A stretch of DNA of 60,186 nt from Caulobacteraceae bacterium (GTDB taxonomy: Bacteria; Pseudomonadota; Alphaproteobacteria; Caulobacterales; Caulobacteraceae): NCBI GenBank assembly GCA_003164925.1, contig PLRV01000037.1, positions 74,145 to 134,330 on the forward strand, in the 5' to 3' direction. Positions 2,169 to 38,769 of this stretch are shown here, one piece after another. Numbering within the stretch: the stretch's first letter is position 1; every line of letters starts with the position of its first letter. A model generated the notes under the pieces. It was given only the letters and a program-made list of their open reading frames with translations. It did not search any database and was not told the DNA's origin. The translations under genes were made by a program, and so were the position numbers.

Positions 2169-2282
2169 ATCTCCATAAAAATCAATACTCCCAGGCGAGC
2201 CGTCAAGGCCTCTCCACCCATTTGACAGTCTCACGCATTGCTCGCACACTTTCGGACACCCGAAAGCACGGGAGCAAAGGCG

Positions 2283-3611
2283 ATGCGAAACGGCGAATTG
2301 AGCCACGCCCTGATGGGCGGAAAACTGCATGTGTTTCGGCGCGAGCGTAGCTCCCGCTGGCAGTGCTCGACCTACCTGGCAGGCCGCGAGCACCGCATCT
2401 CGGCAAAGACCGACAGCCTGGCCCAGGCCAAGGCTTTCGCCGAGGATTGGTATTTGACGCTGCGCGGGAAGGTCGCGCGCGGCGAAGTGAGCGCCGAAAA
2501 GACCTTCAAGGAAGCGGCTGCGGCCTTCGAGCGCGAGTACGAGATCATCACCGAAGGCCAGCGCAGTCCCGCCTATGTGCGCGGGCACAAGGACCGACTC
2601 CGGTTGCATCTCAATCCCTTTTTCGGGTCGATGCCGCTATCTCAGGTGACGGCAAGCGCCGTCCAGGAATACCGCATCAAGCGCTTGAGCCTGCCGGTGA
2701 AGACGAAGCCCAAGGAGGCGGCCGAGGGCGAAGCGGCGGCGAAGGACAAGAAGAAGTCAAAGGAACCGAAGGAGGCCACCCGTCCGGCCCGCACCACACT
2801 GCACCATGAACTGGTGACGCTGCGGCAGGTGCTCAAGACCGCCATCCGGCATGGCTGGCTCCAGCACTTGCCGGACCTCACCGCGCCGTATCGGACTTCA
2901 GGCAAGATCGCGCACCGGGCCTGGTTCAGCCCAGAGGAATACCAGCAGCTCTATAAGGCCACCCGCGCCCGCGCCGCTGACAAGAAGAACCACCGCCACA
3001 AGGCGGCGGCACAGCTCCACGACTATGTGCTCTTCATGGCCAACACGGGCCTACGGCCAGACGAGGCGGCGCGGCTGCAATATCGCGACGTAACGATCGT
3101 GGACGACGAGGCGACCAGCGAGCAAATCCTCGAAATCTCGGTGCGCGGAAAACGGGGCGTCGGGTTCTGCAAGAGCACCCGAGGCGCGGTGCGCCCCTTC
3201 GAGCGGATCAGGGAGCGCAACGTCAACGATCGCCCCACCAGGGAGGAGCTGAAGCAGCGGAAGGCCGAGGGCGGGAAAGCGTCAGAACGCAAGGCCGCGC
3301 CGCCCAAGCCCACCGACCTCCTCTTCCCGACGCGGCAGACCATGCTCCTCAACAAGGTGCTGGCCGACACCGGCCTCAAGGAAGACCGCGAGGGCCAGGC
3401 CCGCACCGCCTACAGCCTGCGCCACACCTACATCTGCATGCGGCTGATGGAGGGGGCGGACATTTATCAGGTGGCGAAGAACTGCCGGACGAGCGTGGAA
3501 ATGATCGAAAAATACTACGCCTCGCATATCAAGACGCGGCTGGATGCGGCGGCAATCAATGTGCGGCGAAGACCCGTTGCCTCCGACTCGGAAGGCGAGA
3601 TAACGCCCTAG
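2283..3611 (+). CDS. int: Tyrosine recombinase/integrase of the island
   Basis: Site-specific DNA integrase (phage integrase family), the enzyme expected to recombine attL and attR. From the ATG at 2283 the protein is 442 residues. An N-terminal AP2-like/arm-binding region and a SAM-like core-binding domain (about 75-200) precede the catalytic domain. The first catalytic Arg is in NTGLRPDE (about R258), the second Arg-His is in SLRHT (about 380), and the nucleophile is Tyr in EKYYASH (about 412). The first His of the usual HxxR box is Tyr here. A Lys/Glu-rich insert lies at about 140-170. ATG 2283 has a GGAG 8-9 bases upstream and is preferred over the in-frame TTG at 2238. Confidence 0.93.
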   Translation: MRNGELSHALMGGKLHVFRRERSSRWQCSTYLAGREHRISAKTDSLAQAKAFAEDWYLTLRGKVARGEVSAEKTFKEAAAAFEREYEIITEGQRSPAYVRGHKDRLRLHLNPFFGSMPLSQVTASAVQEYRIKRLSLPVKTKPKEAAEGEAAAKDKKKSKEPKEATRPARTTLHHELVTLRQVLKTAIRHGWLQHLPDLTAPYRTSGKIAHRAWFSPEEYQQLYKATRARAADKKNHRHKAAAQLHDYVLFMANTGLRPDEAARLQYRDVTIVDDEATSEQILEISVRGKRGVGFCKSTRGAVRPFERIRERNVNDRPTREELKQRKAEGGKASERKAAPPKPTDLLFPTRQTMLLNKVLADTGLKEDREGQARTAYSLRHTYICMRLMEGADIYQVAKNCRTSVEMIEKYYASHIKTRLDAAAINVRRRPVASDSEGEITP

Positions 3612-10645: not shown

Positions 10646-11836
10646 ATGCCCTCTGAAGCTATTTCCCAAGTTTCTCACCTCGGACGCACGAACTGGCGAA
10701 GCGCGAATGTGCGCTTCGGCATCAAACAGTCAGACCGCCTCTCTCACGTCTATCTGATCGGCAAGACGGGCGTCGGAAAGTCCACCCTCCTCGAAGTCCT
10801 CGCCCGCCAGGACCTCGACACCGGCCGTGGCTTTGCCCTCATCGATCCGCATGGCGATCTCGTTGAGCGGCTTGCGAGGCTGGTGCCGGCGTCAATGGCG
10901 GCCCGCGTTCGCTATCTCGACGCTGCCAACCCTTCCCAGCCCTTCGGATACAACCCCCTCCGGCGCGTGCGTGACGACAAGATTCCGCTCGCTGCCTCCG
11001 GCCTACTTGAATCCCTGAAAAAGCTCTGGCCGGACGCCTGGGGCGTCCGCATGGAGCATGTGCTCAGGAGCACGCTCTTTGCGCTCCTCGAGCGGGACGG
11101 CTCCACTCTTCCCGACATCCTCCGGCTCTACGCCGACGACGCCTTCCGAAAGCAGGTTGTTCGGAATCTCCGCAACGAGGTGGTGCGGGAATTCTGGAAA
11201 GTGGAGTTCGAGAAATACCCCTGGCGCTATCGCGCCGAGGCGGTTGCGCCGATCCAGAACAAGTTGGGCGCACTGCTTTCCGATCCCACCCTGTACCGCA
11301 TCCTGGTCGCCCCGGAGCGTGACCTGCACTTCCGCGCCCTGATGGACACGGGTGGCGTCCTTCTGGTCAATCTCTCCAAGGGGCAGCTCGGTGAGGACAG
11401 CGCGACGATCTTAGGGAGTTTGCTTGTCTCGACGATCGGACTTGCGGCGCTGAGCCGCGCCGGCAATCCCGAGGCGGACCGTCGCCCCTTCTTCCTCTAT
11501 GTTGATGAGTTCCACTCCTTCACCACCCTCTCCTTCGCCAACATGATGGCGGAGATGCGCAAGTACGGCCTGGGGCTCACGCTCGGGAATCAGCACCTCC
11601 ACCAGCTTGATCCCGACATTCGCCATGCCGTCCTCGGGAACGCGGCGACCTTGATTTCATTCCGCGTGGGCGCGGAGGACGCGGCGATCCTCGCCCGCGA
11701 GTTCCAGCCGACATTCGGCGTCGAAGATCTGATCAATCTTCCGAACCGCGACATGTACCTCAAGCTCATGATCGACGGCACGCCATCGCGCCCGTTCAGC
11801 GCGAGGACGGAAGACGCCCGCGCACCACCGCCCTGA
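10646..11836 (+). CDS. HerA/VirD4-type DNA-transfer ATPase (first of two)
   Basis: A 396-residue P-loop ATPase. Walker A GKTGVGKST is at residues 39-46, followed by the characteristic RGFALIDPHGDL segment. A Walker B LYVDEFHSF lies near 286 and a sensor-like LTLGNQHLHQL near 310. Family members (TraD/VirD4/HerA-like, type IV secretion DNA-binding) pump DNA during conjugation or act in DNA processing. No N-terminal membrane helices are present, so it is a soluble form. It is followed 75 bases later by the ArdC-type gene. A paralogue lies at 26167-27888. Confidence 0.8.
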   Translation: MPSEAISQVSHLGRTNWRSANVRFGIKQSDRLSHVYLIGKTGVGKSTLLEVLARQDLDTGRGFALIDPHGDLVERLARLVPASMAARVRYLDAANPSQPFGYNPLRRVRDDKIPLAASGLLESLKKLWPDAWGVRMEHVLRSTLFALLERDGSTLPDILRLYADDAFRKQVVRNLRNEVVREFWKVEFEKYPWRYRAEAVAPIQNKLGALLSDPTLYRILVAPERDLHFRALMDTGGVLLVNLSKGQLGEDSATILGSLLVSTIGLAALSRAGNPEADRRPFFLYVDEFHSFTTLSFANMMAEMRKYGLGLTLGNQHLHQLDPDIRHAVLGNAATLISFRVGAEDAAILAREFQPTFGVEDLINLPNRDMYLKLMIDGTPSRPFSARTEDARAPPP

Positions 11837-21516: not shown

Positions 21517-23871
21517 TTATGGCGGCACCTCGCTAACAGCATTACCAACCTCTACCACATCGACCGTGACACCTTGATACGTTGATTCCACCTCGGCCTT
21601 TATAGCAGATATCGCAGCTTTTTGCTCTTCGGTTGCCGCTCCCGGCTGCACACCAATCTTTAAAACCTTTGACGTTATGTCCGAAGCTTTTACTTCTATA
21701 TTTCCGACCTCCGCTCCCTCAAAATTTGCAAGCTGTTGGGCGGATGACCGTATGGTTGATTTTAGAGCAGACGTTGAATTTACGTAAGTCTGTGCTGTTA
21801 AGTCTATGGTCTTTACAGACGTAGCGACGCCGTTTGTAATGTCATCAATTACTGGAAAATTCGGAACGACACTACTGAGGCTTGGCGTGTGACCCAACGT
21901 CTCTGCTTCCAGAGCCACGCCCCTCACGACCGGGGGAAGACCCCAAGCACTTGATGCAGCCGACGAGCCGATAACGCTTGGCGTAACGGAAGGGGTAACT
22001 GCGGCAACGCCAGCGGCGGCCGTTGCCCTAGCCGCACTACTTGCATTGCCCGTAGCAGTGTTGCTTGAGCTGTTCGCCTTTCCGGTTGTTCCGCTCCCGG
22101 TGGAATTTGCCGCCGAGACAACACTCGCTGTCGCTGGTGTGGAATTTGCGATCTGAAAGGACGCCGCAGCATTTTTCGGTGTCACTTGAAGATAGGTAGA
22201 TACGGCCGATAGCCCCGGCGCTGCAGTTGGCGCTACGCCCTGTGAGATCACGCCTGCAGACGAGGATAGCAACGCGCTTAATGTGTCGGGAGACTTTGCG
22301 GTCGTCGTTCCAACAGATGCGTTCGGCTTTGAACTCGAAACAGATGCGACGGTTGCAGGTGTCGCGGTTCCAATAGAAACATTTGTGGCAGCGCTGGTGG
22401 CTGGCACGGCCCTTACGGGGGCGGTACTAGCTGTGTTGACCCTCGCATTGATTGTGTTGGCACTGCTCGCCGCAGCCATCGCTGCCCACGCGGCGTTGTT
22501 CTGTGTTTGCGCCGTTTGGTTGGCCGCTTGCACCTGATCGTGCGTCTTAGCGGCGGCGGCGTTCTGGGCGGTCCAATAGGCTAGGCTTTGCGCCGATTGC
22601 GCTTGGGTGGCGGCCTGCGCAGCAGCAGCCTTGGCGTTGATGGTACTGGCACTGCTCGCCGCAGCCATCGCTGCCCAGCGAGGATCATTCTCGTTGGCCT
22701 GAAACTGTGCGTCTTGAGCCGCCTGCGCCTGATCGTGCGTCTTAGCGGCGGCGGCGTTCTGGGCGGTCCAATAGGCTAGGCTCTGCGCCGCTTGCGCTTC
22801 GGTGGCCGCACTCGCAGCGCTGGCTCGCGCATTGATCGCCTCACGAGTGTATGGAGCGTCAGTAACAGCCCACGCCGCGTTGGTTTGAGCTTGAAGGGCT
22901 TGGTTTGCAGCATCAGAAGCGGTCGCTCTCGCATTAACGGCGGCGCGGCTGAAATCATCTGCAGCGTAGGGCACTGCCGTGTTGCTCTGCGGCGAAACGG
23001 ACTGACTCGAGGATGCTACGTTCGCCGGCGACGATCCGGCCCCAAAACGTCTCTGCGGTGTCTGAGAACCGTTCTGGGCGGCCGATGAGCCCTGAGACGG
23101 TGAGTTAGCGGAATTGGCAACGAGGGCAGGCGCTAAATTTGGTTGAGCGGCGACAGCTCTAAATCGGCGCTGTTGGAATGGGGCTTGTGTTGAAGAGCCA
23201 GAAGATACCGAGCCGCCATTTGGGGCTGAAGCGGTAGCCTGGCCGGAATTTCCGAGGGTGCCGTCAGTGCCGGAAGCTCGGAATCTGCGCTGCGTCGAAG
23301 AATTGGTCGGTGCGGTTACAGGAGCGTAGGGTGGCGAGACTGCATCCGCGACGCTGCCATTGGCGGCGCTCGGCGTTCCCGCGGTCTGGAAGCGCCGCCG
23401 CTGGACAGCTGAGGATCCTTGGGGCCCCGACGAATAATCGCTCGCGCCAGCTTCTGATGCGCCCTGAGTTTGCGAAGCGATCGATCCAGAGCCGGAATAG
23501 CTAGAAGCACCTGTGCTTCCGAAACGCCGCCGCGTCTGCAAAGTGGTCTGGCTCGCAGCCGCGTCAAGAACCGGAGCTGAACCCCGATTTCGAAAGCCGC
23601 CAGCGTTGGGAGTCTGAATTGGCGGGCTGGCTGCAGACGCCGATGGAAATACTTGGCCCGGCGAGTTTGGGCTGCTCTGCGCGCCGTTTTGGGTTCCAAA
23701 GCCTCCTGTCCTTCCGCGAGCTCTGTTCTGAGTTGCCACCCCAGATTGGCTTTGCGTGGAGGAGGCCTGGCCCCGTCCATGCCCGTACCCCCCTGATTGA
23801 TCCTGCCCGAATGCTGAACAGAAGCTGGAGGCTAGAGCTGCGAGCGTGCAGGCGAAAAGCAACTGACGCAT
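21517..23871 (-). CDS. Large exported low-complexity protein with RRF repeats (module 2)
   Basis: A 784-residue exported protein from ATG 23871 (GGGAGG upstream; the frame to 23988 is rejected). The signal peptide is LLFACTLAALASSFCSAFGQ. Residues about 60-290 are Ser/Gly/Gln-rich with five RRF boxes about 35-40 residues apart (RRRFGST, RRRFQTA, RRFRASG, RRFRAVA, RRFGAGS). About 300-480 hold Ala-rich 63-65-residue tandem repeats (AQSLAYWTAQNAAAAKTHDQ). The Ala/Thr/Ser-rich end closes with an ordered segment including VLKIGVQPGAATEEQKAA. That last part resembles, in form only, C-terminal segments of some polymorphic toxins. It follows its TPR partner gene closely. Confidence 0.7.
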   Translation of the reverse strand: MRQLLFACTLAALASSFCSAFGQDQSGGYGHGRGQASSTQSQSGVATQNRARGRTGGFGTQNGAQSSPNSPGQVFPSASAASPPIQTPNAGGFRNRGSAPVLDAAASQTTLQTRRRFGSTGASSYSGSGSIASQTQGASEAGASDYSSGPQGSSAVQRRRFQTAGTPSAANGSVADAVSPPYAPVTAPTNSSTQRRFRASGTDGTLGNSGQATASAPNGGSVSSGSSTQAPFQQRRFRAVAAQPNLAPALVANSANSPSQGSSAAQNGSQTPQRRFGAGSSPANVASSSQSVSPQSNTAVPYAADDFSRAAVNARATASDAANQALQAQTNAAWAVTDAPYTREAINARASAASAATEAQAAQSLAYWTAQNAAAAKTHDQAQAAQDAQFQANENDPRWAAMAAASSASTINAKAAAAQAATQAQSAQSLAYWTAQNAAAAKTHDQVQAANQTAQTQNNAAWAAMAAASSANTINARVNTASTAPVRAVPATSAATNVSIGTATPATVASVSSSKPNASVGTTTAKSPDTLSALLSSSAGVISQGVAPTAAPGLSAVSTYLQVTPKNAAASFQIANSTPATASVVSAANSTGSGTTGKANSSSNTATGNASSAARATAAAGVAAVTPSVTPSVIGSSAASSAWGLPPVVRGVALEAETLGHTPSLSSVVPNFPVIDDITNGVATSVKTIDLTAQTYVNSTSALKSTIRSSAQQLANFEGAEVGNIEVKASDITSKVLKIGVQPGAATEEQKAAISAIKAEVESTYQGVTVDVVEVGNAVSEVPP
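22455..22860. repeat. Tandem 189-195-bp repeat inside the FG-repeat gene
   Basis: At least two near-identical units, for example the 60-bp stretch starting at 22534 and again at 22729, and the block starting near 22460 and again near 22649. They encode the Ala-rich AQSLAYWTAQN units and could vary in number by slippage or recombination. Confidence 0.8.
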
Positions 23872-23893
23872 GAGAGCCTCCCCAGGCTTGTCC

Positions 23894-24865
23894 TCAACAG
23901 TTCGCTTCGAAACGACGACATTTTGGTGGTGGTGGCGGAGGTGGTGGAGGGGGCGTGATGGCGTCCTGGGTTCGCTGCTGGACGCCATTGGCTACCCCCG
24001 TAAGCGCGCCCTGCTTTATGGCGCTTCCGAGATCCCTGAAAAAGCTACTGGCTGCATCATTGGAAGTTCCAGCATTCTGCTTCCAACTGAGCGCCTGTAC
24101 GAAATCAGAAGAAACTTGGACGACGTTGATCGTCTTTGCCGTGTGCCATTCGCCCTTTTGCAGCGTCTGTGCGGTTACCTGGAACGCGCCAGCGCTGGTT
24201 TGTTGGTAGGTCAACCGCACATGAGTTCCCCGCTGATCGCCCTCTTCGACGAAGTGATCGGGCGCTACCTCAACCGTGCCCAGGGTGGTCTGTCCCTTAT
24301 AGAGGGTCAGATCGGAAATTTGAGATGTGGTGGGGTCAAGCTGAAACCGGCCGACAATGACATTGCCTGAGCGATCTAGCCCGGTGTAGGCAAGGATGAG
24401 CCCCGGTGTCTCCCATTTGTATTGATTATACTGAACGGGCTGACCATCGATCTGCATCCAGTATTGGCCCGCCAGCGAAGCGAGGATACCCCACGCATTG
24501 GTGGCCGGCCTGCGCTCGGGTTCAGCGATACTTGAGCGCGGGGCACCCTTAGTGGCGCTTGCGTCCGCAAGTGCGGCTTTCGCGTCGGGGTCGTCCGGCT
24601 TGAGCTTCAGTGCATGTTCAATATCGACGATCGCGGACTTACGGTTTCCTTCCCCAAGGTAGGCTTGGCCGCGGCTGAGATAGGCAAGCTCCTTTTGGCC
24701 CAAAGGAAGATCACCAGAATTTATAGCGCGCGTCAGAAGGCGAACCGCTTCGGCGTACTGTTTGCTATCGAGGGCATCAAGCCCGGCGTTGCCGTCGTCT
24801 AGGCCGCTGGCCAAAGCAGCAGTGGACGTGATGAAAAGCGCCGCAGCAACGGCGGCGAATATCAT
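23894..24865 (-). CDS. Exported TPR protein (module 2), paralogue of 16544-17443
   Basis: A 323-residue exported protein from ATG 24865. The signal peptide is IFAAVAAALFITSTAALAS. A TPR region (about 28-100; DDGNAGLDALDSKQYAEAV, AYLSRGQAYLGEGNRKSA) is followed by a beta-rich domain with GILASLAGQYWMQIDGQPVQY, matching the module-1 protein segment by segment. The tail has a run of ten prolines and ends in a Cys. It lies 22 bases upstream of the large FG-repeat protein on the same strand. The reversed gene order relative to module 1 argues for separate rearrangement. Confidence 0.75.
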   Translation of the reverse strand: MIFAAVAAALFITSTAALASGLDDGNAGLDALDSKQYAEAVRLLTRAINSGDLPLGQKELAYLSRGQAYLGEGNRKSAIVDIEHALKLKPDDPDAKAALADASATKGAPRSSIAEPERRPATNAWGILASLAGQYWMQIDGQPVQYNQYKWETPGLILAYTGLDRSGNVIVGRFQLDPTTSQISDLTLYKGQTTLGTVEVAPDHFVEEGDQRGTHVRLTYQQTSAGAFQVTAQTLQKGEWHTAKTINVVQVSSDFVQALSWKQNAGTSNDAASSFFRDLGSAIKQGALTGVANGVQQRTQDAITPPPPPPPPPPKCRRFEANC

Positions 24866-25180: not shown

Positions 25181-26161
25181 TCAGCGGAGAATTAGCGGCG
25201 CGGCCTTGCCGGCCGCATCGTGCCACTGCATCTCAAAAGGACTCAGCCTATCGGTCTCGCCGGCAAACAAGAAGAGTCCCGCCGGGAGTCCGAGTGGCCC
25301 AACGACCACACCCTGCGCCGCTCGGCGCATCGCTTCCGCTCGCACAAGCGAGGTCGTAAGAAAAAGGACCCGCGCTGCCGGAATTCCGAGATGCTCCACA
25401 TGGAGCGCGAGCCGGTAACTTTCAGCGTAGGCGAGGAGCTTGCGCAGGATCGTAGCCCGGTAAAGGAAGGCGTCGCTTTCCTGAACGCGCTTGGCAGGCG
25501 CGATGGTCATCGTGCCTCGGTCAACTTCGAGGAAGACATAGGATCGGCGCGTCGGCTCACCCGCCCGCTCAACCCGCAGCCCGAATATGGCGTCCGGCGC
25601 AAGGTGCACCTCCGCCTTCGCGAGGCTCCACTGCACCGGCACCGGCCAACGCCCCGGAAACGGCGAGCGCCGGGTCGCTTCCGGCGCGTCCTCAAGAATC
25701 TCCTCCAAGCGGATGAGCCGCACATCGTCATTCGCGCGGCAGGCCAGTTCCAAGCCGACCATGTACTCGGTCGTGGCCAGCGTATGGTCGAGGTTTTCGC
25801 GGGTGTAGGTGCGGTTGCGGGCGCGCCAGTCGGTAGGGCCGACACGCACACCAAGCCGCTCTTTGAGGATGCGTGCCCCGGCACTGTCGAGGCCGTACAC
25901 CAGGGAGCGTGAGCCGCCCTCAGTGAACCGGTCGATCTGGGCAATAGGTCGGTCGAGATAGCGGTTGCGGTAGAGCCAGGTCAGCCGGCGCGAAAGCTTG
26001 TCACGGCTGCGATGGTCAAGGAGGCGCTGCAGATCGTCCGCCCGGATGAAACGGTGCCGGTGGACATGGCGCAGAATTTCTAGATCGTCGTCCGTCAGTT
26101 CGATGTTAGGGACGCCACCCGCGCGCTTGAAGCGCGGATAGGAAGCGCGGACCTCCGCCAC
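25181..26161 (-). CDS. Replication-relaxation family protein
   Basis: A 326-residue protein resembling the Replic_Relax family of mobile elements. An N-terminal winged helix (about 20-85; DDDLEILRHVHRHRFIRADDLQRLL, SRRLTWLYRNRYLDR) is followed by a hinge with LDHTLATTEYMVGLE and a C-terminal alpha/beta part (SYVFLEVDRGTMTI, KLLAYAESYR) reminiscent of nuclease-like folds. Family members are linked to plasmid replication or relaxation. It is last in a four-gene operon and begins 5 bases after the VirD4-like gene, so it may be the DNA-processing partner of that ATPase. Confidence 0.75.
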   Translation of the reverse strand: MAEVRASYPRFKRAGGVPNIELTDDDLEILRHVHRHRFIRADDLQRLLDHRSRDKLSRRLTWLYRNRYLDRPIAQIDRFTEGGSRSLVYGLDSAGARILKERLGVRVGPTDWRARNRTYTRENLDHTLATTEYMVGLELACRANDDVRLIRLEEILEDAPEATRRSPFPGRWPVPVQWSLAKAEVHLAPDAIFGLRVERAGEPTRRSYVFLEVDRGTMTIAPAKRVQESDAFLYRATILRKLLAYAESYRLALHVEHLGIPAARVLFLTTSLVRAEAMRRAAQGVVVGPLGLPAGLFLFAGETDRLSPFEMQWHDAAGKAAPLILR

Positions 26162-26166
26162 CTCCG

Positions 26167-27888
26167 CTACGCCCCCTCTTCGACCCAGAAGGGGTCGGTC
26201 CCGTCGTCCGGCGGCTTCGGCTTGCCCGAAAGCTGGGCCTGCCGAACAGCAATCTCAGCTTCCACAGCAGACATCGGCGAGATGTAGGAACTGGCGGCGC
26301 GGGTGCGTTCAATGAACCGCGCGACCTCTTCTTCGCGCACAAGCGCCGGCTTCACGGTCACCGGGCGCAGCCTGACCGGCACGCTTTCGGGCCGCTTGAG
26401 GATCGCCATCTGTTTCGGGAGGCTGCGCAGCTTCACGATGGCCAGATGTATCTCCTCATCAAGGCTATGGACCGCAGTGGGCAACATGACGCGAACCGGC
26501 TTGAGGGTCTGCGAGCGGCCCTGCGTGTTCGCCCAGCCATGTGTGCTGCTTTCATTCGAGCCCCAGGCGCTTGCGTCTGTCGTGCTTTCCGAGCTGCCCG
26601 TATTTTGCGACCGTCCATACGGGAGGGCGTCGTCGCCCGAGTATTGGTCCGCGCCGCCCTCGGAAGTCCCTGAACTGCGGGACGACGAACCCCCGGTGCT
26701 TGACCCAGAGGTGTCGCTTCCGCTGTCCGTATAGCTTTCGGACTCCAGCCAGAACGGCACCTCGTCCACCACCGTCGGCTTGTCCAGGATGTGCTTTGCG
26801 CGCTCCAGGTTGAAGGAATTGCGGAACACCTCCCGCGCCATCACCTCGGCGTCGCTGTCGGTCATGCCGCCGAAGACGACCTTGGTCTGCCCGCCGGCCA
26901 TGATGCCGTTGTATATGGGGCTGTCGTCCCGGCCGAGCTGCCCTAACCGCTGGTGGCTCAGCACCACGTGGAGCCCGAACTTGCGGGTCTGGTCGAGCAT
27001 CTGCTCGATGTCACTCGTGATGAACTGGTAGCACTCGTCCACATAGAGGGTGAACGGCCGGCGCTTGGCCATCGTCTGGCTGCGGGCTTTCGCCAGCAAG
27101 AACAGCTCGCTCGTGATGAGCGTGCCCAGAAGCTGGCTGTTGGCTTCCGAGATCGCGCCCTTGAGCGTCAAGTTGACGATGACAATCTCGCCTTCGTCCA
27201 TCGCGCGGCCGAAGTCGAGCACCTTGTACCGCTGCCCCACGATCCGCCGGATGACCGGCGAACTCAAAAATTCCATGAGCCGGTTGTTGGTGCTCGAAAA
27301 CTGCTCCAGGAAGTCCCGCGCACTCATCGCGTTCCAGTCGCCCCACTGCGCGTCGAACACGTAGTTGGGCAGGTCCTGCGTGAGGCTACGCCGCAGGCTT
27401 TGGGCGTTCCGTGTCGTGATCAGTTCGACCGCTTCGATAAGGGTCAATTCGCGCACCGCGAGGACGTAGAAGACGGCCTTGAGGCAGCGCTTGAGGAGCG
27501 GAGTCGCCGTCAGGTCTTCCCCGCCCCACACCTGGGCGCACGCCGACACCATCGCGTCCACCCGCGCCTGGGGCTCCACGACGTTGTCGAGGCGAAGCGG
27601 GTTGAAGCCGGCGGACCAGGCAAGGTCGGCAGGCGTGACGACATGGATCTTCCGCTGTTTGTCCACTTGCCGGCTTGCGCACCACGCGACCACGTCGTCG
27701 GCAAGCGTCCCGTGCGGGTCGATCAGGCAGAGGCCCCGCCCGGCGAGGATGTCCTGACGGATGAGGGACTCCAGGAATTTTGACTTGCCCGTCCCGCTCG
27801 CGCCGACAACATGGACATGGCGGGAGCGCTGCTCATTCGTGAGCGATACGTCCTTGCCGCGCCCCGTCTGGCCGAGCGTGAAGGGCAT
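26167..27888 (-). CDS. VirD4/HerA-type DNA-transfer ATPase (second of two)
   Basis: A 573-residue P-loop ATPase from ATG 27888. Walker A GASGTGKS is at residues 29-36, then RGLCLIDPHGTLADDV. A Walker B-type LYVDECYQF lies near 275 and an SHQRLGQL sensor near 305. A Ser/Gly/Thr-rich linker (about 380-455) separates a C-terminal tail. It has the same core as the 10646 ATPase but is longer. Such coupling ATPases deliver DNA in conjugation. The upstream coiled-coil gene ends one base before this start. The ORF extension to 27927 overlaps that gene and is rejected. Confidence 0.85.
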   Translation of the reverse strand: MPFTLGQTGRGKDVSLTNEQRSRHVHVVGASGTGKSKFLESLIRQDILAGRGLCLIDPHGTLADDVVAWCASRQVDKQRKIHVVTPADLAWSAGFNPLRLDNVVEPQARVDAMVSACAQVWGGEDLTATPLLKRCLKAVFYVLAVRELTLIEAVELITTRNAQSLRRSLTQDLPNYVFDAQWGDWNAMSARDFLEQFSSTNNRLMEFLSSPVIRRIVGQRYKVLDFGRAMDEGEIVIVNLTLKGAISEANSQLLGTLITSELFLLAKARSQTMAKRRPFTLYVDECYQFITSDIEQMLDQTRKFGLHVVLSHQRLGQLGRDDSPIYNGIMAGGQTKVVFGGMTDSDAEVMAREVFRNSFNLERAKHILDKPTVVDEVPFWLESESYTDSGSDTSGSSTGGSSSRSSGTSEGGADQYSGDDALPYGRSQNTGSSESTTDASAWGSNESSTHGWANTQGRSQTLKPVRVMLPTAVHSLDEEIHLAIVKLRSLPKQMAILKRPESVPVRLRPVTVKPALVREEEVARFIERTRAASSYISPMSAVEAEIAVRQAQLSGKPKPPDDGTDPFWVEEGA

Positions 27889-27889
27889 G

Positions 27890-28579
27890 TCAGAGGCCCT
27901 CCATGATCTCTCGGATCTGGTTTTCAAGCGACAGGGCGAGCGTTTCGAGATGCTGCCGGTCGTCGTCGGTGAGGCGGTCTTCGCCGCCGGCCGCCTTGAT
28001 GAGGGCGGCCCTCAGTTCAGCAGAGTCTTCCTTCGCGCGTGCGATCGCCTGCGCTGCACGCTGCGCCCGGCTGAGCGTCGCGTCCGGATGCGGCTGCGGC
28101 GGTGGATTCTTGATCCTCTCGACCCTGGCCTCCGCTTCAAGCGCCTCGGCTTCCAGGTTGGCGCGCTCGATGCGCTTCTTGAGCGCCTTGGTCGCCTTAT
28201 CGTCCTGCCGGTCGATCTGGGCTTCCGCGAGGCCCTCGAAAATCCCATCAAGCTCGGCCAGGAGCGTGGCCTCATCGGCGAGCAATATCTCGTCGAGGTG
28301 CCGTTGGCGTTGAAAAGCCTTGGCGAGCCGCTCTTCCGCCGCGAGCAGGCCCTGCATGGCCCCCAGGAGGCTGGCTTCGACCTCGACGTGCTCCCGCTGG
28401 GCCAGGCGGAATTCGGTATAGGCGCGGAAGGCGCGCGCATGGGCCTCGTACTTGGCGCGCGCCAGCAGGGGTATGCCGAGCGGCGTGCCGGGCGGCAGAC
28501 TCGGCAGGCCGGGGCTGCGCGGTTCCTGCGGGGGCAGGACTTCGCCCTGGTGAATCTTCCTAACCGGCTCGTCGCTCAT
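27890..28579 (-). CDS. Coiled-coil protein of the transfer-like operon
   Basis: A 229-residue protein, Pro-rich for the first 35 residues and then almost entirely helical with long charged heptads (about 45-215), as in AKYEAHARAFRAYTEF and KKRIERANLEAEALEAEARV. No enzyme motif is visible. It overlaps the upstream membrane-protein gene by four bases and is followed by the VirD4/HerA-like gene with a one-base gap. It may bridge the membrane protein and the ATPase. That role is inferred from position only. Confidence 0.7.
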   Translation of the reverse strand: MSDEPVRKIHQGEVLPPQEPRSPGLPSLPPGTPLGIPLLARAKYEAHARAFRAYTEFRLAQREHVEVEASLLGAMQGLLAAEERLAKAFQRQRHLDEILLADEATLLAELDGIFEGLAEAQIDRQDDKATKALKKRIERANLEAEALEAEARVERIKNPPPQPHPDATLSRAQRAAQAIARAKEDSAELRAALIKAAGGEDRLTDDDRQHLETLALSLENQIREIMEGL

Positions 28580-35408: not shown

Positions 35409-35798
35409 TCACGCCGGCTGAGTGTCCAACGCCCGCTGGACTCCTTGGGGGTCACCGGCAATCGCCCTCAAATAAGCCCGCGCCGGCTGGTCGGGCTGAG
35501 CACGGCCCTGCTCCCAATCTCGTAGCGTCCCAAGCGGAATGTGATACCGAGCCGCGAATTCTTCCTGGGTTAGCTGCAGCGCGCGGCGAATGACCTTGGC
35601 GCGCGGCACAGCTTTCATGCGCTGGAAGTCTTCAGCCGTCAGCGGCTGAGCGTCAGGGTCGCTGAGCGCCGCCGCGTGCACCTCTGCATCGGTCATGGGC
35701 CGAACAGGCCGCTTTTCCATAACGTCCTCGCGGCCATCGGGGTGGACCTGGACGAGCTGGCCGTCACTCTTGCGAATTCTGGAGGTAATAATTGTCAT
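35409..35798 (-). CDS. brnA: BrnA-like antitoxin, intact
   Basis: A 129-residue protein from ATG 35798. The N-terminal segment is followed by RPMTDAEVHAAALSDPDAQPL, then a C-terminal Xre-like HTH (about 75-115; LTQEEFAARYHIPLGTLRDWEQG). BrnA binds BrnT and represses the operon. Its ATG lies inside the normal BrnT 3' end, as usual in this family. Because of a frameshift in brnT, the brnT start now reads straight into this frame, giving one 214-residue open frame (35409-36053). Whether a fusion or a separate antitoxin is made is not known. Confidence 0.8.
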   Translation of the reverse strand: MTIITSRIRKSDGQLVQVHPDGREDVMEKRPVRPMTDAEVHAAALSDPDAQPLTAEDFQRMKAVPRAKVIRRALQLTQEEFAARYHIPLGTLRDWEQGRAQPDQPARAYLRAIAGDPQGVQRALDTQPA

Positions 35799-36053
35799 GT
35801 TCGCGCTTCGTCGCCCTGCGGGCTGAAATGATGCGGAGGCTCTCTCCGTGCTGTACACGACGGTCAGGAGCGAGCCGCCTCCCATCCCGGTGATCAGGAA
35901 TCGGTCCTCGCCATAGTCGGCGCTGCGAGGATCGGCTTGTTCAATGCCGAAGGGATCGTTGAACACCTCAATGGCGACCGGGAAATCAACCCCGTGTTTG
36001 AGGTAGTTGGCCTCGGCCTTGTCCTCATCCCATTCGAACACGTCACCGCTCAT
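35764..36053 (-). pseudogene. brnT: BrnT-like ribonuclease toxin, frameshifted
   Basis: The N-terminal BrnT sequence (FEWDEDKAEANYLKHGVDF, then DYGEDRFLITGMG and LLTVVYS) is in frame from ATG 36053. The expected C-terminus (ESLRIISARRATKREHDNYY) is in another frame and stops at 35764-35766. The switch is in the dinucleotide tract GAGAGAG at about 35840-35848. Removing one GA unit restores a 95-residue BrnT of normal length, so a 2-base insertion explains it. BrnT cuts mRNA; as it stands the toxin is broken or fused to BrnA. Confidence 0.8.
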
Positions 36054-36242
36054 AGATACGGGCTGCCAGTAGCGCTGTCAACTACCCAGCGAATCGCTGG
36101 GCATTTGGAGAGGGTAGCCCATCGTGCCAGCGTCAGCTCGCGACGGTCGGGGTTGCGACCGTCGCGCAAAGCGTGAATGCTGGTGCGATGGGCCATGGCT
36201 GAGGCGGATTTGGAAGCGGCGCTGTGCGCCGCTGACAGCAAT

Positions 36243-36361
36243 GTGCCGGCGCTCCTTCCCGCCTGCGCGGGATGAGCGCTTCGGAGGGTGTCGCCCCGAC
36301 ACCCCGCGACTTCGTCGCCAACCTTCGGACGTGACCCGGCACGGACGACGCATTCCCCCGC
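36243..36361. repeat. Direct repeat copy A, left of Fic gene
   Basis: About 118 bp, closely similar to 37720-37836 in the same direction. Both copies hold hairpins CCCGC/GCGGG and GGGTGTCG/CGACACCC, and the shared tail GTGACCCGGCACGGACGACG. Confidence 0.85.
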
Positions 36362-36391
36362 CCGGCCAAGACGGGCAGACGCATCCGCCCG

Positions 36392-36419
36392 TTTAACATG
36401 CTGGGCACTTCATGTTAAA
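36392..36419. promoter_or_regulatory. Inverted repeat upstream of Fic gene
   Basis: A perfect 9-bp inverted repeat TTTAACATG (36392-36400) / CATGTTAAA (36411-36419), 10-base spacer, ending 33 bases before the GTG start. It is a likely operator. Confidence 0.55.
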
Positions 36420-36452
36420 AAGTTCCAGATTCGCGAACATGAGGGCGGGCAC

Positions 36453-37547
36453 GTGTTAAAGCCGACCTATCAACTGCCGGCTTTGCCGCCGCCGGGTGAG
36501 CTCGAAACACCCGCCGTGCTGCGCGAGCTGACCCGTGCCCATCGGCACCTGGCCGAACTCAAGGGGCGGGCGGCCAGCATCCCTAACCAATCCATTCTGA
36601 TCGATACGCTATCTCTGCAAGAGGCGAAGGCCAGTTCGGAAATCGAGAATATCGTCACCACCCAGGACGAGTTGTTCCAAGCTAGTCTATTTCTTGATGG
36701 CCCCGGCTCGCCGGCCGCCAAGGAAGTGGCAAGCTACCGGGACGCCCTAAAATGCGGGTTCGACAGCCTGGGCCAGAACCACGGCCTGCTGACCAACAAT
36801 GCAATCATCGAGATGTTTCGCGTCCTCAAGCGCACCACCGAGGGATTTCGTGCGACTCCGGGAACGGCCCTCAAGAACGAGGCGACCGGGGCGCTCGTCT
36901 ATGTCCCACCGCAAGATCAGGGCGAGATCATCGCCCACATGACCGCCCTCGAACGCTTCATCAACGACGACGACGCGAGCCCTCTGGACCCCTTGGTCAA
37001 GATGGCACTGATCCACCATCAGTTCGAAAGCATTCACCCGTTTTCGGACGGCAACGGCCGGATCGGACGCATCATCAACGTCCTTTACCTGACCCGCGTT
37101 GGCCTTCTGGACATCCCCATCCTCTACCTCAGCCGCTACATCACCACGCACAAGCCCGACTACTACCGCCTGCTCCAGACGGTGCGCGACGACGATGCGT
37201 GGGAATCCTGGCTGCTCTACATCCTGCGTGCGGTGTCCGAGACATCGCAGCAGACGCTTGAACTGATCGAGGGCATGCGCATGCTCATGGCCGACTACAA
37301 GCGGCGGCTGCGCGCCCATCCTTCGGTCCGATATTCCCAGGACCTGCTCAACAACCTGTTCCGCCACCCCTACACGCGGATCGAGTTTCTGCAGGCCGAC
37401 CTCGGCGTCACGCGCCAGACGGCGGCGAAATATCTCGACCAACTCGCCGCCGCGGGCTTCGTCGAGAAGCACCAGCACGGGCGCAACAACTACTATATCA
37501 ACGCGCCGCTGGTCGCCCTGCTCATGCATGTTTCGCAGGGCCAGTGA
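36453..37547 (+). CDS. Fic-family AMPylase, class II (self-inhibited)
   Basis: A 364-residue Fic protein; the family usually transfers AMP from ATP to a target protein. The N-terminal inhibitory motif is SSEIEN (about residues 66-71, pattern [S/T]xxxE[G/N]) within NQSILIDTLSLQEAKASSEI. The catalytic motif is HPFSDGNGRIGR (about 195-206) with the catalytic His first. A C-terminal winged-helix region (FLQADLGVTRQTAAKYLDQL, about 310-345) fits this subfamily. GTG 36453 has GAGG upstream and gives the usual family N-terminus. It lies between two 118-bp direct repeats. It may act as a regulator or stress toxin. Confidence 0.93.
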   Translation: MLKPTYQLPALPPPGELETPAVLRELTRAHRHLAELKGRAASIPNQSILIDTLSLQEAKASSEIENIVTTQDELFQASLFLDGPGSPAAKEVASYRDALKCGFDSLGQNHGLLTNNAIIEMFRVLKRTTEGFRATPGTALKNEATGALVYVPPQDQGEIIAHMTALERFINDDDASPLDPLVKMALIHHQFESIHPFSDGNGRIGRIINVLYLTRVGLLDIPILYLSRYITTHKPDYYRLLQTVRDDDAWESWLLYILRAVSETSQQTLELIEGMRMLMADYKRRLRAHPSVRYSQDLLNNLFRHPYTRIEFLQADLGVTRQTAAKYLDQLAAAGFVEKHQHGRNNYYINAPLVALLMHVSQGQ

Positions 37548-37719
37548 CGCAAGCCTTGCCGGCAGAGACGCAGGGATTTTAGGGGGAGATGTCGTTAACG
37601 CGCTGCGCGCTCGTGAGCCTTGCGTAGCGGGGCTTCGAGCGGCTCAAGCGGTGCGACCTCTTCGTACTGCAGGCGTGGCGAGAAGGAAATGAGCCGCCCT
37701 GGCGGCGAGATAAATTAGG

Positions 37720-37836
37720 TGCGGGCGCTCATTCCCGCCTGCGCGGGATGAGCGCCTTCGGAGGGTGTCGCCCCGACACCCCGCGGCTCTGCCGCCATTC
37801 GGATGTGACCCGGCACGGACGACGCATTCCCCCCGC
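37720..37836. repeat. Direct repeat copy B, right of Fic gene
   Basis: The second copy of the repeat at 36243-36361. Its right end runs into the left arm of the large inverted-repeat structure at 37830. Confidence 0.85.
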
Positions 37837-38093
37837 AACCGTCGGCCCCGCTGTCCGCCCGCAAAGAGCGGCGGTATCTACGCCGCGATGAGTGGCTGCG
37901 GCAGCGAGGGAGCGAAGCGCCCGACTTCGACCGTTTTGGGGTGAGCGGCGTGCTGTCGAAAGACCCGCGAACCCCCGAAGAAGGCGCGCTATCTAGCGCG
38001 CCTTCGGAGCCCGGACGGAGGGGCTGGCGCTCCAGGCCCCAACGTACAGGGAAAACGGTCGAAGTCGGGCGGTTAGCCCGACGGTTGCGGGGG
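37830..38093. other. Nested inverted-repeat structure, candidate structured RNA or DNA site
   Basis: A 264-nt noncoding stretch closed by long perfect stems. The 16-bp stem is 37830-37845 with 38078-38093. Nested inside is a 19-bp stem, 37919-37937 with 38052-38070. Inside that are a 12-bp palindromic stem (37980-37991 with 37994-38005), a GTC-GAAA-GAC GNRA hairpin (37955-37964), GGGGT/ACCCC (37938-37942 with 37971-37975) and GGGGCTGG/CCAGGCCCC (38020-38040). An alternative hairpin GTCGGGC/GCCCGAC (38064-38082) would compete with both long stems. No open frame explains it. It lies between the Fic gene and attR. Confidence 0.8.
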
Positions 38094-38098
38094 TATGA

Positions 38099-38195
38099 AA
38101 GCCGTTGTGGGACAACGGCTAATGGCCTTCCGGGGAAAGGCCATACCCCGCCAATTCATAGTTGGCGGGGTGCTTGGCGGGCTCTCGGCCGCCCC
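38099..38195. other. Run of four further hairpins next to attR
   Basis: Consecutive stems GCCGTTGT/ACAACGGC (38101-38119), ATGGCCTT/AAGGCCAT (about 38122-38143), ACCCCGCCAA/TTGGCGGGGT (about 38145-38171) and GGCGG/CCGCC (about 38176-38193). They continue the structured region and stand 130 bases before attR. Such clusters occur at transfer or replication origins and in structured RNAs. Confidence 0.75.
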
Positions 38196-38322
38196 ACGAA
38201 GAAAAAAGTGCGGGTGGCCGAAAAAGTCTGCATTTTAGGGCAAAAAGCACACACACCCTCACGCACTCACACTTTTTCAAAAAGTCTTATGTGTATATTC
38301 AATGACTTATAAGGATTGAGCG

Positions 38323-38373
38323 CAGACTACGAATCTGAGGGTCGGACGTTCGAATCGTTCCGGGCGCGCCAAA
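38323..38373 (+). repeat. attR: 51-bp copy of tRNA-Arg 3' half
   Basis: Identical to 2118-2168. It lacks the tRNA 5' half and is not a functional tRNA. It marks the right end of the island. Confidence 0.95.
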
Positions 38374-38769
38374 TTTTCCAAACCTTTCCAACGCGTTGCG
38401 AGGTTGCGGAGACAGTTTTCCAGTCTCTCTCTGACGCTCAACTGTGACCACTGCTGTGTCCACCATCCCTTATCATGATGGAGGGTCCACGACGCAGAGC
38501 AGCGGCACGCGTCACGATGACGGCTTTCCGCCGGGATGCCAGCGCGCAGAACGACCCTGACCGGCGCTCGCTGGCGTCCGGCGGCTGGTCGATAGATGGT
38601 TCTTGGGACCCCGCCTTTTGATCTTGATCCGGCGTTTATCCTGTCGCCCCGAAAGCCGCATCGAACCTTTATGGCTTTTGGGCGTGTACTAACGATCCGG
38701 ACTAGCGCGCACGTCGGTCCTTGGCGCCGCGCCTATTTCAGGCGCCGCCGTTATTTGGGTCCTTGGCCA
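38374..38769. other. Intergenic, right of the island
   Basis: About 400 bp of chromosomal DNA without a convincing gene. The open frame upstream of 38770 has no clear start. Confidence 0.4.

Follow-up and report, generated by a model that had tools for sequence, protein, structure and literature searches.

The island and its attR end

The window, i.e. the whole 60,186-nt stretch of Caulobacteraceae bacterium DNA that was analysed, carries an integrated island extending from a tRNA-Arg gene (2090-2166) to a near-identical copy of the 3' end of that tRNA (38313-38371, + strand, matching 2107-2166), which is taken as attR. An integrase gene lies beside the tRNA-Arg gene at 2238-3611, with a Phage_integrase score slightly below the cut-off. 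A Replic_Relax protein adjoins a TrwB/HerA-like ATPase at 25181-27927, a second TrwB/HerA-like ATPase is encoded at 10646-11836, and an 823-aa open frame at 21517-23988 joins a long low-complexity N-terminal part to a CDI toxin nuclease-like C-terminal domain. Toward the attR end a Fic open frame (36288-37547, + strand) with Fic_N, Fic and SoFic-like C-terminal domains is situated between two structured tracts, and divergent from it is a single open frame (35409-36053) that combines a BrnT toxin domain with an HTH domain.

The downstream tract contains a 264-nt nested structure (37830-38093, + strand) that was placed next to attR in a preliminary description of this DNA; it is indeed found about 220 bp inside the island end, before the tRNA-Arg 3'-end copy. 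The sequence AAAAAGTCT occurs exactly twice in the window, at 38221-38229 and 38279-38287, both between the structure and attR, and the pair possibly represents integrase arm sites.

Architecture of the 264-nt element

The element consists of an outer stem P1, a side hairpin P2 and an inner stem P3 that surrounds three hairpins, with 77% of bases paired in the fold, almost all by Watson-Crick pairs. The two perfect long stems of the preliminary description are both present, and its other stems are present as well with small corrections. P1 joins 37830-37845 to 38078-38093 and has the 16 bp assigned to it, all 16 of them Watson-Crick; the inner stem also stands, but its length of 19 bp has to be revised to 20 perfect pairs (37918-37937/38052-38071) within 26-nt arms (37912-37937 and 38052-38077) that are 92% complementary. 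P2 (37846-37911) bears a tandem G.A/A.G loop at 37866-37867/37887-37888. Within P3, hairpin a (37938-37975) bears a second such loop at 37943-37944/37969-37970, hairpin b (37980-38005) is the palindromic stem of 12 bp (37980-37991/37994-38005) noticed earlier, lying at most 2 nt from the centre of the P3 domain, and hairpin c (38010-38051) has a G.A/A.A loop at 38018-38019/38041-38042. Hairpin a also contains GTCGAAAGAC at 37955-37964, the supposed GNRA hairpin; the sequence is there, but the RNA minimum-energy fold forms instead a 6-nt loop closed at 37954/37961, and it is the DNA-parameter fold that does form the GNRA hairpin.

An alternative hairpin at 38064-38082 exists as proposed, but the assertion that it would break both long stems was too strong: a fold in which it is enforced has -168.5 rather than -183.8 kcal/mol and keeps about 11 of the 16 outer and about 12 of the 20 inner pairs. 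A switch between the long stems and this hairpin was therefore rejected, since the hairpin only shortens the stems and its cost of ~15 kcal/mol leaves the idea without energetic support. The limits first given to the structure were too narrow, although the structure itself holds. On the + strand it is followed at 38094-38250 by more perfect hairpins, closely spaced, and then a longer one, and the structured tract extends over ~37713-38250, with a sister tract at 36080-36365.

When 37912-38077 is taken out, P1 and P2 join into an uninterrupted hairpin of 98 nt (-79.7 kcal/mol, z -9.8); the inner part on its own folds with -107.3 kcal/mol (z -8.1). The whole thus behaves like two palindromes, one inside the arm of the other. 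By eye, AGC flanks the inner element on both sides. Hairpin b marks the centre of a dyad symmetry in the P3 domain, the - strand of which scores 61.6 bits against the + strand covariance model.

Stability beyond chance

Comparison of the minimum free energy with that of shuffled sequence, a check proposed along with the preliminary description, confirms the structure and shows that it far exceeds what chance would give. The + strand of the 264 nt folds with -183.8 kcal/mol against a shuffle mean of -123.7 (z -10.8) and the - strand with -172.7 kcal/mol (z -9.9), and on either strand none of 200 shuffles was as stable. When both long stems were held fixed and the remainder shuffled, the real sequence was more stable than 200 of 200 (z -6.1), and a fold with DNA parameters gave z -15.4 (100 shuffles). 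The whole window has exactly two perfect inverted repeats whose arms reach 16 or more within ~320 nt, namely the long stems of the element, and 60 shuffled windows contained none with such arms. Tiling of the window (908 windows of 264 nt, 10 shuffles each) placed all of the top 8 windows of excess stability within 35971-36366 or 37819-38346. Strong local structure is also seen at 441-560, outside the island (z -6.6).

The 115-nt module and the tract upstream of Fic

A 115-nt module with several hairpins precedes the element on the + strand at 37719-37833 (copy 2), overlapping the first 4 nt of P1 and bearing a tandem G.A/A.G loop at 37802-37803/37818-37819. Copy 1 (36243-36359, + strand) is 91% identical and lies directly upstream of the likely Fic start, and is itself preceded by a second structured tract (36080-36240, + strand) with a long nested hairpin at 36117-36193; the module copies, this second tract and the later hairpins together amount to structured tracts on both sides of Fic. 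The 264-nt element is present once and the module twice in the 3.4-Mb draft genome, where a model of the 115 nt finds the two known copies and one match at E 8.

The listed GTG start of the Fic frame falls inside copy 1, and relatives of the protein align from about residue 36-56. The module was considered as part of the Fic coding sequence, given the start of the frame inside copy 1, the 59 open residues in the corresponding frame at copy 2 and the length of 3 nt of the single gap between the copies after the listed start. This was rejected: every substituted codon examined by eye alters the residue, whereas the hairpin is preserved.

Compared on a fixed structure, the copies show one compensatory change, A-U to G-C, and a second pair in which C-G has become U-G, and none of the 38 pairs is broken. 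A single compensatory pair in two sequences does not reach significance: 235 of 500 shuffles have as much, and the score is equalled by a control in which the structure is slid by -3 columns. The palindrome GGGTGTCG-CCC-CGACACCC is invariant in both copies, and copy 2 contains the stem ATTCCCGC-CTGC-GCGGG. The upstream tract has G-U pairs at 8 of 60 positions in its + fold and 2 of 53 in its - fold (3 of 33 in the long nested hairpin), and because of these counts it seems more RNA-like than the 264-nt element.

Strand signature

Tandem sheared G.A pairs and unpaired A are marks of functional RNA. Symmetric mismatches in the 264-nt element are purine-purine in 10 of 10 cases on the + strand and 0 of 8 on the - strand (12 of 12 and 0 of 10 over 37713-38250), the unpaired bases of the + fold are 37% A compared with 17% A overall, and the - fold is without this signature. 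Two tandem G.A/A.G loops form on the + strand of the 264 nt, a number reached by 2 of 400 shuffles (mean 0.08). Such loops are found on the + strand in P2, hairpin a, the upstream tract and each copy of the module, and the - strand has none in the stretches folded; at least two were formed in 2 of the 908 window-wide folds, wherever in the window these may lie.

The energy model itself prefers purine-purine mismatches, which make up 58% in shuffles, and a count of loops independent of energy gives the signature no more than partial backing. If at least 4 inner and 3 outer pairs are required, 2 of the 3 GA/GA loops on the + strand of the window lie in the 825 nt examined, compared with 0 of 3 TC/TC loops; with 4 and 4 pairs the sole GA/GA loop is in the region and three TC/TC loops are elsewhere; with 3 and 3 pairs the region has 2 of 7 GA/GA and 0 of 6 TC/TC. 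Of the five tandem G.A loops, two meet the energy-free definition at 4 and 3 pairs and one at 4 and 4. The module folded alone has modest enrichment of unpaired A in copy 2 (22% against 14%) and none in copy 1 (15% against 13%), and the single mismatch on the - strand of each copy is purine-purine. G-U pairs number 1 of 101 in the 264-nt fold against a shuffle average of 8.2 of 86, and none of 300 shuffles was as low. This scarcity seems indifferent to strand, like that of a DNA palindrome, but genuine RNAs can have equally few G-U pairs: among the known RNAs of the window, the SRP RNA has 1 of 30 on its own strand and the tRNA fold 2 of 24.

Since a decaying palindrome would mostly give G.T and A.C, and the symmetric mismatches are all purine-purine on the + strand, decay of a palindrome was rejected as the sole explanation. 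The signature favours, without certainty, a folded + strand, RNA before single-stranded DNA, over a decayed DNA palindrome.

Known families, coding and promoters

The earlier statement that neither a protein nor a known RNA family explains the structure is borne out by these tests. None of 4227 Rfam families, a library that we take to include GOLLD, ROOL, OLE, HEARO and the group II introns, matched the element at its gathering score, the whole window giving only tRNA and SRP RNA; a search at E up to 10 over 35900-38500 produced five matches, all far under their gathering scores, and no GOLLD, ROOL, OLE, HEARO or group II intron. A known Rfam class was rejected accordingly. Nine open frames of at least 40 residues occur over 37713-38250, and the longest (123 residues) has no Pfam family. 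No promoter or terminator above chance was found at the element, 37713-38250 being free of T-tract terminators and of sigma-70 consensus by scan, although alphaproteobacterial promoters may differ. With no Rfam family, no recognisable gene and a strand-specific signature, the original designation as a candidate new structured RNA or DNA site stands.

The lack of a nearby reverse transcriptase was also correctly noted. No RVT_1 was found among the 30 frames of the window scanned with Pfam, and a search of the whole genome gave two RVT_1 loci on other contigs (C1 and C23), both of which appear by eye, from their motifs, to encode group II intron-like proteins.

Searches for relatives

Relatives of the region were sought in samples of several collections, which do not amount to proof of absence. 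Among plasmids, blastn of 37560-38320 gave no match; 37700-38320 at E up to 10 gave 9 records with 26-45 nt pieces (E 2-7) that were judged chance, and 36040-36400 gave 3 records with 33-41 nt pieces and nothing usable. Phages gave no match. Of 200 family genomes, 6 including the own genome matched the 264 nt by blastn, the other five with 33-40 nt pieces that were folded and rejected by eye, and 761 nt searched against 398 genomes of the order found the own genome alone. The same was true when 200 genomes of the family and 385 of the class, sets that overlap, were searched with a covariance model of the 264 nt, using the stricter filters of Infernal and scoring 5-10 candidates per genome. Exact patterns were absent from viral contigs, and in genome contigs one occurred at two Bifidobacterium places that were taken as chance from the pattern alone. 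No homologue thus emerged from the collections searched, and hence no covariation for the 264-nt element.

The proteins of the island are similarly isolated. The Replic_Relax protein was found in 1 of 299 genomes, its own, and in one plasmid record at 34% identity; the island ATPase was found in 10 of 385 genomes including its own, elsewhere at 34% identity at best, and three island proteins used as queries found nothing in viral contigs. Judged by sequence comparison, the island thus seems to have no near relative in what was searched. In the flanks of 14 relatives of Fic, from 4 viral contigs and 10 plasmid loci (the latter taken from 20 matches listed where 926 records matched), neither model found a counterpart of the element: at E up to 10 the two models gave 9 and 2 hits, the best (E 0.02) over a 37-nt piece that was rejected. 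Some of these flanks bear stable hairpins of their own. Plasmids L043 (2740-3450) and L049 (2630-3340) are alike around Fic and have downstream of it a GC-rich stretch dense in hairpins, with no convincing match to either model.

Interpretation

The stable multi-branched fold, the presence of the 115-nt module on both sides of fic and the strand-specific purine-purine and tandem G.A signature point, tentatively and with somewhat less than even confidence, to a structured RNA made from the + strand, which is the fic coding strand, at the attR end of the integrated mobile island. The tract would be transcribed with or beside fic and fold into a very stable RNA, and the two tracts might then be the leader and trailer of a fic transcript or, alternatively, distinct small RNAs from that strand. 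A shared binding or recognition platform at both ends of the fic unit could be the role of the 115-nt module, and the 264-nt element could fold into a compact domain that resists nucleases and by which expression of this unit is stabilised or controlled. The element is accordingly described as an orphan candidate structured RNA of putative function.

The chief rival is that the element consists of nested palindromic DNA repeats of REP- or MITE-like kind, one inserted in the arm of the other, which are passive and whose RNA hairpin is incidental; we regard this as unlikely. It accounts for the Watson-Crick character of 100 of the 101 pairs, for the nearly equal folding of both strands, and for the single hairpin that P1 and P2 make once the inner segment is taken out, as if P3 had been inserted there; the dyad symmetry of the P3 domain and the AGC on both its sides agree with such an insertion, and REPs inserted within palindromes, with dimers that may form large stems, have a precedent in PMC3733652. 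Against it are the single copy of the element and the two copies of the module in the genome, the lack by eye of any target duplication beyond AGC and of any at P1, the failure to recognise a GTAG or CGTC tag, and the purine-purine mismatches where decay should yield G.T and A.C. A strict CGTC-type pattern also has 0 matches in the genome.

A site of island transfer or replication, i.e. a single-strand initiation site, single-strand DNA promoter or origin that folds when the + strand is single-stranded, appears less probable still. The + strand signature would hold for single-stranded DNA as well, the fold with DNA parameters is even more extreme, the island encodes the Replic_Relax protein and TrwB/HerA-like ATPases, Frpo provides precedents (PMC11541004), and in the excised circle the element would sit just upstream of attP, followed by int on the same strand; however, the Replic_Relax gene is ~12 kb away, the element has no sigma-70 consensus, and the module is found also upstream of fic, where an origin has no need of it. 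Far more improbable is that these are transcription barriers or operator palindromes, with hairpins that insulate fic and one palindrome to which either the winged-helix-like domain of Fic or the HTH of the BrnT fusion binds. The module palindrome conserved in both copies and the domains of the two divergent genes are suited to such a role, but 37713-38250 has no T-tract terminator, and this reading does not account for a 264-nt element that is so large and nested.

If the preferred reading of a + strand RNA is carried further, it could represent an undescribed class: a ~540-nt multi-domain RNA (37713-38250) with a sister domain upstream of fic, controlling or partnering the Fic enzyme on a mobile island, in which the module would be the recognition domain and tandem sheared G.A loops the recurrent joints. 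This extension is speculative and in itself rather doubtful. If the element is an RNA, the few large bacterial RNAs known would gain one that is unclassified, strongly folded and associated with both a Fic gene and a mobile island, and its strand signature would show how RNAs of this kind can be recognised in one sequence when homologues are lacking. Nested DNA palindromes would make the locus an instructive case of mosaics that mimic structured RNA.

Comparison with known systems

The ornate large bacterial RNAs GOLLD, ROOL and OLE are, like the element, large and multi-branched. The element differs from them in having no Rfam match at threshold, in its size of 264-540 nt, in being 77% paired with nearly all pairs Watson-Crick, and in the lack of relatives found. 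With the retron msr-msd RNA the element shares an outer inverted repeat around hairpins and a long stem; a retron was rejected, as the whole-genome search found no RVT_1 on the contig of the island. MITEs are resembled in the presence of inverted repeats, but as a target-site duplication there is only a 3-base repeat beside the inner element, and the 264-nt element is in single copy.

GTAG- and CGTC-tagged REPs and REP dimers, as treated in PMC3733652, share with the region GC-rich palindromes that are clustered between genes and palindromes within palindromes. REP stems there have 8-9 bp (CGTC) or 5-13 bp (GTAG), and the copy 2 stem ATTCCCGC-CTGC-GCGGG of the module resembles the CGTC type; by eye, it is preceded by GCTC. 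The stems of the element are far longer (16-20 bp), its tag and tail were not seen, and neither it nor the module has the many genomic copies of a REP. A RAYT-like transposase gene is present elsewhere in the genome, with only 12-nt matches common to it and the region. The Frpo and ssi single-strand DNA promoters and initiation sites, on the evidence of PMC11541004, are likewise intergenic DNA of mobile elements with extensive single-strand structure; unlike Frpo, the element carries no -35/-10 in a folded stem as judged by a sigma-70 scan, from which alphaproteobacterial promoters may depart, and what it has in common with these sites is the mobile-element setting and the extent of the single-strand fold.
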